A stretch of DNA of 50,313 bases from Ruminococcus sp. (GTDB lineage: Bacteria; Bacillota; Clostridia; Oscillospirales; Ruminococcaceae). The DNA lies in the NCBI GenBank assembly GCA_017519145.1, contig JAFWTA010000053.1, positions 1 through 50,313 on the forward strand. The letters run 5' to 3'. The position numbers and the translations under genes are program-made. Below are positions 1 to 22,805 of this stretch, one piece after another. The notes below the pieces were generated by a model. It searched no databases. It was not told where the DNA came from and was given only the letters and a program-made list of their open reading frames with translations. Position 1 is the stretch's first letter. The number at the start of each line of letters is the position of its first letter.

Positions 1-3000
1 AATACCAATGTGTACTTCCTGTAGTTATCATTGTACTTGAAGTCCTTTATCGTCAGTGTCTCTCCTGTGGAGTTTACTGTGATTATTGCATTGTAGCTGG
101 ATCCGTCATAGGCTGCGTGTACGTCTGTTGATTTAAGTCCTGCGAACTTTATTGTATTCGCACCATTGTAGTCATGGATAGTATCATTTCCGAAGCCTCT
201 TGCAAAAACATAGGTATCGTTGCCTGCTCCGCCTGCGAGCATATCATTTCCGATACCGCCGAAAAGGGTATCATCACTGGCAGTGCCTGAAATATTGTCC
301 GAAGCGCCTGTACCTGCATAGATATTGTAAGCTGCCAGAGTCTTGTTGAGCCTGCCGCTCAGATCACGCTCATATGAGAAGAATGTGGTGAGATCCAGAA
401 GAATATCCAGGTTGATCTCTTTATCCTTGCCGTAGGCCATAATATGCTTGCATATGTCATTGAGTATTGACGAATCAGGATGCTCTTCAAGCTCCTTCAT
501 TATGTCAAAACGCATGAAGCCGGTATAGATCTGCTGCTTGCCTTCATTGTCTTCATAAGACACGAGCTTATCAAAATAGGGCTTTACGATCTCTGTATTG
601 AATATCGAATAATATGTGTCGCTTATTCTGGTATAGATCTGGTCGAGTATCCTTGCAGCGTTGGGATTGGGATTAGGTCCGTTAGCTCCCACAAAAGGCT
701 GACCTGTAATAGTTTCTATAACATGAAGCTTCTTTGCATCAAAGTTTGCTCCTCTTGAGCCAACAGCTATATTCTGAGCGCCGGACATAGTGAAAAGAAT
801 ACTGTTGAGAGCTTCATTCTTTTCGTCCTGACTTACAGCATTGCGGAAGCTGTCTATATATCCGCGCAATGTGCCGTCATCAGCTGAAAGCGCAACTGCC
901 AGAGAGGGCATATTTCCTGCATTGTTGAAATTAAGGCCTTCAGCAGCTGCTTCTGCGATCTCCTTTGTGTCATAGAGGTTTGCAGTTGCCCAGAGCGCCC
1001 CCATGCGTCCCTTTGTACCGTCTGAGTACTCAAATGAAGAGGTACCTTCGATAACAGCAGCTGTATCCGTGCTTATAGTTTCTTCATCCGGGGTTGCGGA
1101 TATGGAAACGATATTATGATCTGCAAGAGTGCTGAGCTCTGATGCCTGTGAAATACCGTCGCCGTTTGCATCGACCCACAGTCTGAGGTCACCGAATACA
1201 GAGTCCTCGCTGTTGATAACTCCGTCATCATTCTCGTCATATTGTTTAAGTGCAGAGAAACCGTTCTGTGCATACTTATCTTCAACGTTGATAAATGTAG
1301 TGTCGCCGAAGAGCTCGGTACCGTTGTCTATCCTGCCGTTGTTATTGCGGTCAAGAGCGAGGAAAGCATCCTTTCTTGTCCAGTCGATACGCTCTCTGTA
1401 GCCGTTATTGTCCTTATCGAAATAAGCGCCCTCTGACTTGTCGATGATATTGAAGCCGTCGTTATCCAGATCAAGTATCAGCGGATCAAACTTTATTATC
1501 TCTGCATCGATCAGCAGATCAATAATATCGGCTATTCCGAGCATTTTAATTACGTCAACTGAAGCGTCACAGAAGTTTTCACCCCATTTACTGAGGAAGT
1601 TAACATCTTCTCCATTTACCCAGGCGTCAATACAATCAAAAAAAGTATCTCCCGTAACATCTAAAAGGAATCCTAATTCCAGAACACCTAATGCAACCCA
1701 TCCGCCGCTCAATCCTGCAGCTCCTAAACCTCCGCCAGCTAATCCACTCAAAGAAGTAACAGCTCCATCAGTGCCCAATGTTATTGCTCCATCAATAACC
1801 AGTCCTATACCCATTTTGCCAAGTTCTCTGCAAGCAGCATCTTCTGCTTCTTGATCTGATTTGCCTTCTGCTTTAGCCTCCCAATAGCTTAATGCTACGC
1901 CACCGATACTCAATGTGATTCCGATACCGCTTGGTAAACCATCAACACCATTATAATCAGCCAAAGCATCCGATCCATCTACATAAAGTGAAATCAGTCC
2001 ATGGATTCTATTAGCGTCATCAATGTCTATAGGAAATTTTCCCTGCCCTCCGGATGAGCCGCCTGACGTTCCTCCGGGTGTGCCGCCTGTATTTCCACCT
2101 GCGGAGCCACCGGAAGTTCCACCGGAAGTTCCACCGTTTGTTCCGCCTGTTGTCCCACCTGTTGTGGGCGAGGGAGTCAGAGTTCCGCCGGTGCCCATTG
2201 AAATGCCGACTATAGACGGCTTTTTACCGCTATTGGAACCACTGCCGCCTGTAGAAGGATTTCCATTACTGCCGCCGTTGCCGTCATCGGGCTTTCCCGG
2301 CTCAACGGGATCGCCGCCGGAACCGTCATCAGACTGTCCGGGCTCAACAAGGTCACCGCCGGAACCGTCTTCATTCTGCCCCGGCTCTACAGGATCCGTA
2401 CCGTTATCGCTTCCGGGATCCTGCACGGGAAGAACGACATCATTAGTTGGATCGTCGGTCGGAACTACAGGAGTAACAGGATCATCATTGTGCTCCTGTT
2501 CCCATGATGTTACCTCATCGATGCAGAGAATAATATACTCTGAGCGGTATTCATATCCGTTGGGATACATTCTCTGAAGCACAGAGTATTCCTTTAATGC
2601 GGTATCAAGGTCGCAGCCTATGAGAGCTGTCAGCTTTTCAACCGAGTCTTCGCTGATAACATCTCCGTACTCTCCCAGGAAGTATATCGCGTCTGCTCTG
2701 AGATTATCCGAATCAGTCTTGAATTCTATCAGTGTACGGTAATTCTCAAGGAGACCTGAGCCATATACTCTGTTCCAGAATTCAGTGGAAGTCTCATTTG
2801 GGCCAACGGTATAGAGATTATTATCGGTATAGCCTGTGGATATGAACTCAACATACTGTACCAGTAACTCCGCAGCCTTATCGGTAGAATAACCGAGGTA
2901 CTGAATGCTGAATGCACTCATTTCTAAAAGGCCGTTCTTTTCCACACCGTTTATCTTAGCAATGTTTTCATTTGCAAATGCAGCAGAAAGCAGTGTGCTG

Positions 3001-20604: not shown

Positions 20605-20678
20605 AAAAAACGTGAAAAAGTGTGAAAACTAATGAAATAGTGTGATAAATACAAAAAAATATCTGAAAAAGCTCAAAA
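20605..20678. promoter_or_regulatory. Helically phased A-tracts (predicted DNA bend)
   Basis: Eight runs of A centred near 20607, 20617, 20626, 20636, 20647, 20656, 20668 and 20676, about one per helical turn. They end 18 bases before the -35 hexamer of the next gene. Such phasing is known to curve DNA and can act as an UP-like activating element. Confidence 0.65.
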
Positions 20679-20754: not shown

Positions 20755-21321
20755 ATGAACAGACTTATTCCCGGAACAACAATGAAATTTTCGGAACAGG
20801 CAAGAGAATCGGCGTTTTCGCTTATCTCTCCCGTTCTTGAAGCCACAGGCGGACTTACGCTGTCGCAGCTCTCAAAGCTCACAGGTCTTGAGGGCACTAC
20901 CATCCAGAACTGGATCAAGCGCGGCTGGGTCTCGGCTACAAAGGGTAAGAAATATTCCGAAAAGCAGATCCTGCGCATACTGCTTATCAATATGCTCCGC
21001 AAGGCTATGAAGCTGGAGGACATTGCGAACCTTATGCGCTACATAAACGGCGATGTGGAGGATACCTCGGATGATATCATCGAGGAGGTCCTTCTCTACG
21101 ATATCCTTTGCAGGATAATCTTTACCGCCGAGGACGAGGGCGCTTTTGACACTGACCACATAAAAACTCTGGTAGCCCGTGAGGTGGCGGAGAATACCAA
21201 AGAGATCGCCGATGACGAAAAGATGAAAAAAGCTATGTTCGTCATGGTAATGGGTTACAGAAGCGGTTTCCTCAGGACCGAAATGGAAAAGGGTCTGGAG
21301 ATAATTCTCGACGAGATGTAA
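20755..21321 (+). CDS. DUF1836-type helix-turn-helix regulator
   Basis: 188 residues, GAGGAG before the ATG (AGAGAGGAGTTAAAGACT). The MerR-like N-terminal half (LTLSQLSKLTGLEGTTIQNW, then KRGWV and KKYSEKQILRILLINMLR) and the middle MKLEDIANLMRYINGD match the DUF1836 family of clostridial proteins as I know it. The C-terminal half is helical and acidic. Probably binds DNA; target unknown. The promoter contains a palindrome inside the spacer, consistent with autoregulation. Confidence 0.82.
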   Translation: MNRLIPGTTMKFSEQARESAFSLISPVLEATGGLTLSQLSKLTGLEGTTIQNWIKRGWVSATKGKKYSEKQILRILLINMLRKAMKLEDIANLMRYINGDVEDTSDDIIEEVLLYDILCRIIFTAEDEGAFDTDHIKTLVAREVAENTKEIADDEKMKKAMFVMVMGYRSGFLRTEMEKGLEIILDEM

Positions 21322-21338
21322 ACCGATCAGGGAATACT

Positions 21339-21578
21339 ATGAAAAATGAAGATGTAAACAGGAAAACACCGCATAAGGATCAGGGATCGTATCTGTCGTG
21401 CTTTATGTGTATCGGAATGAGCATGGGGATGCTCATAGGACAGGCGTTGTTAAAAAATATGGCACTGGGTATGGGAATAGGGATGTCCGTCGGCACTGCC
21501 GCGGGCGCATACCTTGACGCTAAGAAACGCAGGGGGTCCGGTACGGGGGACAGCAAAAACGGCGATACGCAGAACTGA
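21339..21578 (+). CDS. Small Gly/Met-rich membrane protein
   Basis: 79 residues, AGGGA before the ATG, 17 bases after the DUF1836 gene. Residues about 18-60 make two short membrane helices with Gly spaced as in glycine zippers (GMSMGMLIGQALL and ALGMGIGMSVGTAAGAYL). A charged tail follows (DAKKRRGSGTGDSKNGD). No family assignment. Its transcript would continue into the hairpin-rich region downstream, since no terminator lies in between. Confidence 0.75.
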   Translation: MKNEDVNRKTPHKDQGSYLSCFMCIGMSMGMLIGQALLKNMALGMGIGMSVGTAAGAYLDAKKRRGSGTGDSKNGDTQN

Positions 21579-21590
21579 CCTTCCATGGAT

Positions 21591-21998
21591 AGTCTTTCGG
21601 GGGAAATGACTGCTGCTCTCGGAGCGGCGATGAAAGCTTTTCTTGCTCTCCGTTCGGGGGGACGGAGAGTGAGACAACTCATCTGGCCAAGTTAGGGATT
21701 CGAAGCTGAAATAAGAGAAGGCTTCATTAATGATAGTGCGCGGAAGATCTGGGGGGAACAGATGCGCACAGGGGTAAACAACTTTTTATAATGACGCAGC
21801 AATAGTGACACAACAGCCATGATATAGGGGTGATCGGGGCAATGATCGCTCTGCCGCATAGGGGTATGCGGAAAAAAGCTTCCTCTTATGAAACGCAAAA
21901 AATATAACATGATTTCAGACGGATCTCTGAAGGGATAAGGGGATTATCTCTTGATAAGGGGAAAAGAAAAGGCTCATGTAGGGGTACATGAGCTTTTT
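21591..21998 (+). ncRNA. Candidate structured RNA with G-rich hairpin loops
   Basis: A 408-base stretch without a credible gene folds on paper into a chain of hairpins: AGTC-TTTC/GAAA-GACT with loop GGGG (21591-21611); GCTGCTC/GAGCGGC (21612-21628); CTCTCCGT/ACGGAGAG with an inner G5 loop (21646-21669); GAAGC/GCTTC (21702-21725); GTGCGC/GCGCAC enclosing ATCTG/CAGAT with loop GGGGGAA (21736-21769); CCGCATA/TATGCGG with loop GGGG (21854-21871); GATAA/TTATC with loop GGGGA (21934-21948); and the terminator with loop GGGG (21972-21993). Two further AGGGGT copies lie outside clear stems (21770-21775 and 21826-21831). It may be the 3' untranslated part of the upstream operon, or start at its own promoter (TATAAT at 21787, weak -35). 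I do not recognise a known RNA family. Confidence 0.5.
21972..21998 (+). terminator. Intrinsic terminator with GGGG loop
   Basis: GCTCATGTA (21972-21980), loop GGGG, TACATGAGC (21985-21993), then TTTTT. A-rich sequence before it provides a T-tract on the other strand, where it would end the amidohydrolase transcript. Confidence 0.8.
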
Positions 21999-22004
21999 CG
22001 CATT

Positions 22005-22805
22005 TTATCGGATATTAAGGAGCTTCTCTGCGTTTTTGCAGAAGATGAGCTCCTTTTCTTTTTCTGTGAGAGAAAGCCTGTTTATCATGGCTATCTCATT
22101 GGCAGGGTCGTCCCACGGACAGTCGCTGCCGAAGAGGACCTTGTCCGCTCCCTGCATACGGATTATGCGGAGAAGCTGTTCGTCCTCGATATATCGGGAG
22201 ATAACTCCCACATCGAACCAGAGGTTCTCATATTTTCCTGCGGTGTATCTCTCGACATCGTCCCACATACCGAGTCCGCCGAGATGTGCGGCGACTATGG
22301 TCAGGTGGGGGAAGGCTTCCGCAAGGGCTGCAAAGCTCTGAGGAGTCGCTCTTACGATGTCCTCGGAGTATGGGTCCCAGCCGCCGTGGAAAACGGCGAT
22401 GAGCCCGAGTTCGGCTATTTTTTCGTATATGGGGAACATTCTCTCCTCATGTGGGGAGAACTTCTGATACTCGGAGTGGAATTTGACGCCGCAGAGCCCG
22501 AGAGACTTTATCCTCTCGACCTCTCGGACTGCGTCCTCTGCATCGGGGTGGACAGTGCCGCAGCAGAAGAGCCCGTCCCCCATTATTTCGGCAGCCCAGT
22601 TGTTGATGGTGGTCTGCTGTGAGGGCTTTGTGGCAACAGGCAGAAGCAGGGCGCGGTCTATGCCGTTTTCAGCCATTTTTTTGCGCAGCCCCGCAAGGGT
22701 GCCGTCTGTGGCGGGAGTTATGCCGCTGGTGTCGGCAAGTCCCGAAACTGCTCTTTCTGCAAGGGCGTCGGTGAATGCGTGGGTGTGAAAATCAAAATAT
22801 CTCAT
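22005..22805 (-). CDS. Amidohydrolase-family (amidohydrolase_2) metal-dependent hydrolase
   Basis: 266 residues. TIM-barrel hydrolase with the N-terminal metal motif FDFHTHAF, then VKFHSEYQKF, VFHGGWDP, VAAHLGGLGMWDD and a C-terminal LFGSDCPWDDP holding the likely catalytic Asp. These match the decarboxylase-like subgroup, whose substrates vary widely, so none is proposed. Its ribosome-binding GGAG overlaps the stop of the ArsR gene eight bases upstream, so expression is linked to that regulator. Confidence 0.87.
   Translation of the reverse strand: MRYFDFHTHAFTDALAERAVSGLADTSGITPATDGTLAGLRKKMAENGIDRALLLPVATKPSQQTTINNWAAEIMGDGLFCCGTVHPDAEDAVREVERIKSLGLCGVKFHSEYQKFSPHEERMFPIYEKIAELGLIAVFHGGWDPYSEDIVRATPQSFAALAEAFPHLTIVAAHLGGLGMWDDVERYTAGKYENLWFDVGVISRYIEDEQLLRIIRMQGADKVLFGSDCPWDDPANEIAMINRLSLTEKEKELIFCKNAEKLLNIR

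Follow-up and report, generated by a model that had tools for sequence, protein, structure and literature searches.

A G-rich hairpin array downstream of a DUF1836 gene

The window analyzed here, a stretch of 50,313 nucleotides of contig JAFWTA010000053.1 from Ruminococcus sp., contains a region that we refer to as the G-loop RNA element (21579-22000), located between a small membrane-protein ORF, encoded on the same strand as a DUF1836 gene, and a convergent amidohydrolase gene. The element probably represents the 3' end of the transcript of the DUF1836 gene and the small membrane ORF, or an RNA processed from it. Matches to the DUF1836 gene were obtained in 95 of 100 genus genomes; the 79-aa product of the small membrane ORF yielded no Pfam match at E<=0.01. 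Upstream of the DUF1836 gene (20605-20650), TGAAA/TGATA recurs in steps of about 10 bp and is possibly a regulator site. The features of the locus are the following; nucleotide numbers of the sRNA refer to the putative partner described below.

20755..21321, plus strand: DUF1836/MerR-like gene, head of the operon (Pfam PF08876, PF13411)
21339..21578, plus strand: small membrane-protein ORF, 79 aa
21579..22000, plus strand: G-loop RNA element, fold z -6.56, kept in relatives
21595..21606, plus strand: hairpin with a G4 loop (G5 run 21599-21603) on a 4-bp stem
21612..21628, plus strand: 5' hairpin GCUGCUCUCGGAGCGGC of the predicted fold, conserved in most aligned relatives
21641..21674, plus strand: 15-bp hairpin with a GGGG loop (21656-21659) within a G6 run (21656-21661)
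21678..21685, plus strand: site A1, CTCATCTG, complementary to sRNA nt 96-103, conserved in relatives
21693..21700, plus strand: site A2, TAGGGATT, complementary to sRNA nt 80-87
21736..21769, plus strand: hairpin GUGCGC...GCGCAC around a G6 run (21751-21756), stem variable in relatives
21771..21780, plus strand: site A4, GGGGTAAACA, complementary to sRNA nt 45-54, which form the loop and 5' arm of the UACCCC hairpin, conserved
21816..21841, plus strand: site B, GCCATGATATAGGGGTGATCGGGGCA (longer form GCCATGATATAGGGGTGATCGGGG at 21816), near-complement of the sRNA seed, nt 70-96
21854..21871, plus strand: hairpin CCGCAUA-GGGG-UAUGCGG, 7-bp stem, loop 21861-21864
21930..21952, plus strand: site C hairpin AAGGGAUAA-GGGGA-UUAUCUCUU, 9-bp stem, G4 loop 21939-21942
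21966..21999, plus strand: intrinsic-terminator-like hairpin with an AGGGGU loop (G4 21981-21984), 15-bp stem and a U run in the 3' arm

The minimum free energy of the element is -147.4, compared with -112.6 +/- 5.3 for 100 shuffled sequences, none of which folded as well. A previous sequence-only reading of this DNA had described serial hairpins with G-run loops, and these were found where it had placed them, with six loops of G4 or longer, several of them G5 or G6; the GGGG terminator loop on its 15-bp stem and two extra AGGGGT copies (21770-21775 and 21826-21831) were confirmed as well. Further G4 runs occur at 21836 and 21958, bringing the runs of four or more G to 10, against a mean of 4.6 and a maximum of 9 in 300 shuffles, and there are no CCCC runs. 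When hairpins with a stem of >=6 bp and at most one G-U pair were counted, all three tetraloop hairpins of the element had a GGGG loop, compared with 1 of 88 on the plus strand of the rest of the window and with a mean of 0.002 GGGG tetraloop hairpins in 500 shuffles of the element.

Comparison with known RNA families

The covariance search against Rfam that the sequence-only reading had called for produced no match at gathering score, either in the window or in 12 loci of relatives. Relaxing the threshold to E<=5 for the region 21300-22060 resulted in seven matches, all far below gathering (the best at 17.6 bits against 50). Together with the fold z score, this upholds the earlier description of the region as an undescribed structured RNA. 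CsrB and RsmZ are titrating arrays of many hairpins with a constant loop motif that bind CsrA/RsmA through GGA, and the earlier reading had likened the element to them. The element shares with them the hairpin array and the constant loop motif and differs in that its loops are GGGG, its ligand is probably RNA, and CsrA was not found in its own genome, which is 94% complete. Among 125 genus genomes, 3 were found to encode CsrA. In the window, none of the CsrB, RsmY and RsmZ families reached its gathering score, RsmY scoring 12.3 bits against 57 (E 2). The comparison with CsrB/RsmZ hence fails as a mechanism, and a CsrA sponge was rejected for this genome.

Conservation of the element in related genomes

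A DNA search with the element matched 8 of 60 genomes, its own included, and the stretches behind DUF1836 were collected from 40 other genomes of the genus. In 14 sequences, that of the window among them, the element precedes the amidohydrolase gene; the profile built from these sequences matched 19 of 41 loci, 14 of them by construction, with L062 as the weakest (E 0.0033). The usual upstream neighbor of the element in relatives is a gene for an SPFH (Band_7) protein, which was matched in 73 of 100 genus genomes and was not found in the genome of the window. Four genomes in which no SPFH gene was found (G000, which is the genome of the window, G111, G071 and G095) retain the complete or almost complete element, and a piece of it is present in G069, where it is cut by an insertion-sequence-like stretch near the contig end (L046, about 418-556). 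The interrupting reading frame has what we take to be the start of a transposase (MKYSKEFKEEALKLSDEI).

Across species, the stems of the element core change and the loops remain constant. Distant species often keep, behind SPFH, only this core, namely CTCATCTG, (A)TAGGGA, a GGGG-loop hairpin and GGGGTAAAC; the number of G tracts falls to two or three in some minimal forms, and in several distant species no such core was detected behind SPFH. In site A2, TAGGG is invariant in all 16 aligned sequences. A survey of the first 460 nt of each of 78 regions yielded 174 distinct tetraloop hairpins (stem >=6); GGGG is the loop in 57 of them, followed by loops found four times each, which supports the earlier proposal that variable stems with constant loops reflect repeated recognition. 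The GGGG loops are closed by U-A (30), A-U (22) or C-G (5) pairs, never by G-C. RNAalifold analysis of core A2 yielded five pairs, none of them compensated; we think that this results from MAFFT failing to register hairpins of unequal length.

These alignments also bear on the possibility that the element has no function and that repeat-like terminators and intergenic hairpins have simply been conserved by descent, as might be argued from the missing 3' half in four relatives (L045, L052, L053, L057) and the rearrangement in L058. The conservation of loops and sites on freely changing stems, the shuffle tests and the complementarity to an sRNA that is conserved in its own right (see below) all speak against this reading, which we regard as extremely improbable.

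Several minor features were noticed in the same neighborhoods. Short elements resembling TATAGGGATTAT followed by a GGGG-loop hairpin precede small ORFs located in the DUF1836-SPFH interval in L370 (G089), L371 (G108), L372 (G098), L373 (G067) and L380 (G117), and the unit AAGGATTATTGGGAACAACATCAAGGAAATGACATAAGGGG recurs in tandem in G108. Tiny ORFs for amphipathic-looking peptides (e.g., MNRFKITIWDFLECGIELAIDIIGELI) are found between SPFH and the RNA in L062, L064, L069, L070 and L112, the end of the ORF in L062 being formed by the site CTCATCTGA. After the element in L062, L059, L105 and L112, a small protein is encoded that combines a membrane-like segment with a D-A-x-R-E-x-x-G-L-P-S-like motif.

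A small RNA conserved in the genus

A pattern derived from the element core matched the genome of the window at a second place, CATCTGCCATGATATAGGGA, and an sRNA gene was delineated elsewhere in this genome (G000:C28:105123-105253, minus strand). With up to two mismatches, a longer pattern was found in 72 of 90 genus genomes, in 66 of them as a single match, and in none of 59 genomes of other families (72 of 149 overall). Not all of these matches are the sRNA: those in G033 and G067 look different (L130, L144), and G020, G033 and G067 have no sRNA according to the covariance model R1. In searches of the genus and of an order-wide sample, both run with stricter filters, R1 matched 110 of 125 genus genomes at E<=0.01, with 108 firm matches (E<=6.5e-9) and two weak ones (G022 and G098, the latter match lying in the element itself), and, outside the genus, 7 of 196 genomes, weakly (E 8.7e-5 to 0.007). 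An exact 25-base piece of the sRNA occurred in 106 stretches of named genomes, and most of the 80 listed were labelled Ruminococcus or Oscillospiraceae. One contig with the sRNA is labelled Alistipes (L315, JAMPAJ010000002.1) and is probably mis-binned or mislabelled. Tandem pairs of sRNA genes were observed in L350 (G070) and L369 (G163), the second copy in G070 having diverged in the seed.

The predicted sRNA is about 130 nt long, with a conserved TATAAT-like -10 box and a U-run terminator. Transcription of locus L114 from the plus strand was rejected because box and terminator are both oriented for the minus strand and conservation stops there. Two domains covary, a hairpin with the loop UACCCC and the terminator hairpin, with double-sided changes in 15 of 27 predicted pairs (32 sequences). 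Between the two hairpins lies a 27-nt seed, AUCCCCAAUAAUCCCUAUAUCAUGGCA, which contains a second C4 tract, is predicted to be mostly unpaired and is exact in 61 of 66 aligned sRNAs; further seed variants occur in distant species (e.g., G063, G075, G077, G102, G168).

At all 10 loci read, an ORF for an OmpR/PhoB-like response regulator and a kinase ORF lie upstream of the sRNA on the same strand; at L393, the one locus checked for families, these are Response_reg with Trans_reg_C and HisKA with HATPase_c. The distance from the kinase stop to the sRNA seed is 124-161 nt in eight loci and 928 or 1081 nt in the other two, where one gene intervenes. A TTCACA repeat in the sRNA promoter scored best at spacing 11 (9.97, compared with 7.5-9.2 at spacings 8-14, in 66 sequences scored without a shuffle control), and TTCACA-like repeats at this spacing would be in keeping with a PhoB-type regulator. 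Downstream of the sRNA gene and on the same strand in L114, a SAM riboswitch precedes metK (1295-1395, minus strand).

No Rfam family reached its gathering score for the sRNA in 12 loci and then in 8 further loci; the matches at the first 12 were SAM riboswitches lying only beside the sRNA, and none occurred in the further eight. Among the weak matches of the sRNA, csRNA (RF02379) had the highest bit score, 30.6 against a gathering score of 57. Streptococcal csRNA1 is a CiaRH-dependent sRNA, and csRNAs are described as two hairpins with an unpaired stretch between them, transcribed under a two-component system from promoters with direct repeats 11 bp apart (RF02379; PMC3091779). The Ruminococcus sRNA resembles csRNA1 in its two hairpins, unpaired stretch and two-component neighbor, at a score below that of the family, and differs in that its unpaired stretch presents C4, C3 and CAU, an order that does not allow it to pair with a Shine-Dalgarno sequence and a following AUG. 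Among the literature titles listed, none concerned a csRNA sponge. No Rfam match named RosA or RoxS was obtained for the window or the sRNA, and RosA is possibly not represented in Rfam. Because all Rfam scores for the two RNAs are below gathering, assignment of either to a known family was rejected; both the element and the sRNA are absent from Rfam families by this measure.

Complementarity between the element and the sRNA

Pairing between the two RNAs, as predicted by sequence comparison, is well supported. Read 5' to 3', the element presents CTCATCTG (21678), TAGGGATT (21693), the G6 loop (21751) and GGGGTAAACA (21771), and the matching pieces of the sRNA follow each other 3' to 5', at nt 96-103, nt 80-87, the C4 tract near nt 70-76 and nt 45-54; in the G6 loop, the G4 core alone fits the C4 tract. 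U-GGGG-A loops are complementary to UCCCCA, and GGGGUA, formed by many A-GGGG-U loops with their flank, is complementary to UACCCC. When both strands of the 50 kb were scanned in 6702 sliding windows of 60 nt, site B gave the best value (-36.6 kcal/mol), compared with -32.2 for the best window elsewhere; site B is also among the four best DNA matches to the sRNA antisense in its own genome (E 0.27). Its duplex of -35.1 would retain about -16.7 kcal/mol after opening costs of 12.0 and 6.4. Within site C, 21931-21945 is also complementary to parts of sRNA nt 70-86 (-27.6 kcal/mol).

The complementarity extends over the genus. Among the 52 regions (of the 78) for which an sRNA sequence was available among the 66, the element region outperformed all 60 dinucleotide shuffles against its own sRNA in 39 genomes, that of the window included (median z -4.75), and the sense strand was better than the reverse complement in 45. 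In one compensatory change, sRNA AUAGCAG faces target CUGCUAU in G088 and AUGGCAG faces CUGCCAU in G072. Two further single cases were noted: in G112, the sRNA lacks ACCCC and the element lacks GGGGTAAAC, and in G069, the interrupted element is accompanied by AATTCC for AATCCC in the sRNA seed, one of five changed seeds. The U-to-C change in sRNA CAGAUG (G031, G097, G078) is not mirrored by the targets beyond a G-U pair.

Other results weigh against the predicted interaction. Co-folding of the whole RNAs, by a method that cannot model kissing loops, gave -16.6 kcal/mol and was not significant, with 5 of 60 sRNA shuffles and 4 of 60 target shuffles doing as well. There are 6 complementary runs of >=7 against 4.35 expected, which is not above chance; longer runs are above chance. 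Site A1 alone is insufficient to pay for opening the sRNA terminator stem (16.5 kcal/mol), the predicted fold leaves site A2 mostly paired (unpaired 0.02), and a contact through just one AGGGGUA loop would be about neutral (-5.7 against 3.3 to 3.4 plus 3.3). Of the 13 sRNA-bearing genomes that do not outperform all shuffles, six lack an element behind SPFH (G002, G003, G026, G074, G079, G100), one has its elements before SPFH (G108), and in the remaining six 1-3 of 60 shuffles are as good (G019, G032, G035, G073, G086, G089). The existence of sRNA-bearing genomes without an element behind SPFH indicates that the sRNA does not depend on the element as a partner. The constancy of the sRNA seed also exceeds what a single partner would explain. 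In the opposite direction, six genomes with the element yielded no sRNA even with laxer filters, although it may have been missed in these assemblies, which are 70-90% complete (G092, G114, G117, G120, G067, G098), the best matches having E values of 0.0054 or worse and that in G098 being again the element itself.

The sequence-only reading had left the ligand open among protein, RNA and cation. RNA, in the form of a genus-wide sRNA with a C-rich loop, is now the best explanation, and CsrA drops out as a candidate. Titration of an RNA-binding protein by the GGGG loops, in the manner of CsrB/RsmZ, or formation of a G-quadruplex by four loops would fit the constant loops on variable stems, the ten runs of G4 or more and the six genomes with an element and no detectable sRNA. 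The G tracts leave unexplained the loop flanks and the blocks CTCATCTG, TAGGGATT, GGGGTAAACA and GCCATGATATAGGG, all of which are complements of the sRNA; two or three G tracts are all that some minimal forms possess, and the near absence of CsrA from the genus weighs further against the protein version. We consider such a protein or cation ligand very unlikely.

The same pairing might operate in reverse, with the element being a cis target through which the sRNA controls the stability or translation of the DUF1836/SPFH/small-membrane-protein operon and sponging being a side effect. In favor of such control, the element stands behind SPFH in many genomes of the genus; intergenic copies also precede probable ribosome sites of small ORFs in G089, G108, G098, G067 and G117, which makes cis control of the operon the main rival. 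In addition, no SPFH match was obtained in 6 of 7 genomes whose sRNA lacks ACCCC, compared with 13 of 59 others (Fisher p 0.0017, ignoring relatedness). Against it, the element of the window is 3'-terminal and runs into a terminator-like hairpin, and the gene beyond it is encoded on the opposite strand; the element persists in the four genomes without a detectable SPFH gene; and there are several sites per RNA, more than one-site control needs. On balance, we judge cis control to be rather unlikely.

Proposed function and comparison with known systems

The complementarity of the element to the regulatory region of a trans-encoded sRNA is one of the properties expected of an RNA sponge such as RosA. 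We propose that the element probably acts as a multivalent antisense partner of this sRNA, most likely a sponge or decoy, because there are several sites per molecule, a terminator-like hairpin follows, and the element appears to survive where no SPFH gene was found. Our confidence in this reading is lowered by the six genomes with an element in which no sRNA was found.

The computed basis of the proposed mechanism is that the element and its homologues carry complements of the sRNA pieces, arranged antiparallel to them, separated by hairpins and present in additional copies (sites A, B and C and the G4 loops). The sRNA would be driven by the response regulator encoded upstream of it, and the element would form the tail of the DUF1836 operon transcript; in most genus genomes, this transcript would encode SPFH as well. 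The G4 loops may make the first contacts, with the C4 loop and C4 tract of the sRNA, after which sites A4, A2 and B would zip into longer duplexes. Such binding would titrate the sRNA or mark it for decay and thereby relieve its other targets.

The closest parallel is RosA, a sponge of RoxS and FsrA in Bacillus subtilis, the G-rich regions of which are complementary to C-rich sRNA regions and which has been proposed to titrate RoxS and speed its decay; RosA is described as an independent RNA of about 225 nt that is transcribed from a sigma-A promoter under CcpA repression, two of its three G-rich regions being predicted to be unpaired (PMC8216469). The two RNAs have in common G-rich regions directed at a C-rich sRNA in a Gram-positive bacterium, whereas the G tracts of the element lie largely in hairpin loops, its length is about 400 nt and it forms the tail of an operon. 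By analogy, the element most likely works like RosA, to which no match found here relates it. The same source describes RsaI (RsaOG) of Staphylococcus as a partner of RsaG, RsaD and RsaE with two G-rich regions that bind C-rich sRNAs (PMC8216469). RsaI, on this description, is a stand-alone sRNA of another bacterial class, in contrast to the element, and no match between them was found here.

A more specific version of the sponge reading, which we put forward tentatively, is that the element is loop-coded, i.e., a modular array of hairpins in which the loops carry most of the specificity (U-GGGG-A for UCCCCA and A-GGGG-UA for UACCCC) and kissing contacts, beyond linear antisense pairing, set affinity and valency. 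Hairpins might then be freely gained or dropped, over a range from about 70 to about 400 nt, tuning the amount of sRNA held beside the SPFH operon. The relatives provide a natural series in evolution, ranging from minimal forms to highly repeated ones, of RNAs that are conserved in loops rather than in stems, and loop-loop recognition between bacterial RNAs is therefore directly testable in this system.

If the sponge reading is correct, Ruminococcus, whose members degrade fibre in the gut and rumen, gains a post-transcriptional circuit consisting of a two-component system, an sRNA with a near-invariant seed and a sponge in the SPFH operon; among the literature titles listed, none dealt with an sRNA of Ruminococcus. 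As to other targets, a wobble pattern for sRNA targets matched the genome of the window at 6 places, the same number as its reversed control, and thus without excess. A 15-nt seed match in L394, inside a coding frame, was taken as chance. Outside the sRNA genes, TATAGGGATTATTGGGG was found with up to one mismatch at two places in 125 genomes, G106:C150 and G089:C19. The first (L376, G106:C150:3300-4000) contains at 311-327 the exact seed complement TATAGGGATTATTGGGG in the leader of a gene starting MVKNFNLRKHLKSVVSG...NIQGFGGINHPEWTG, a candidate GH30-type xylanase gene to judge from this start. The site in this leader is a possible mRNA target of the sRNA, and such a target, in this one relative, would link the circuit with fibre breakdown.
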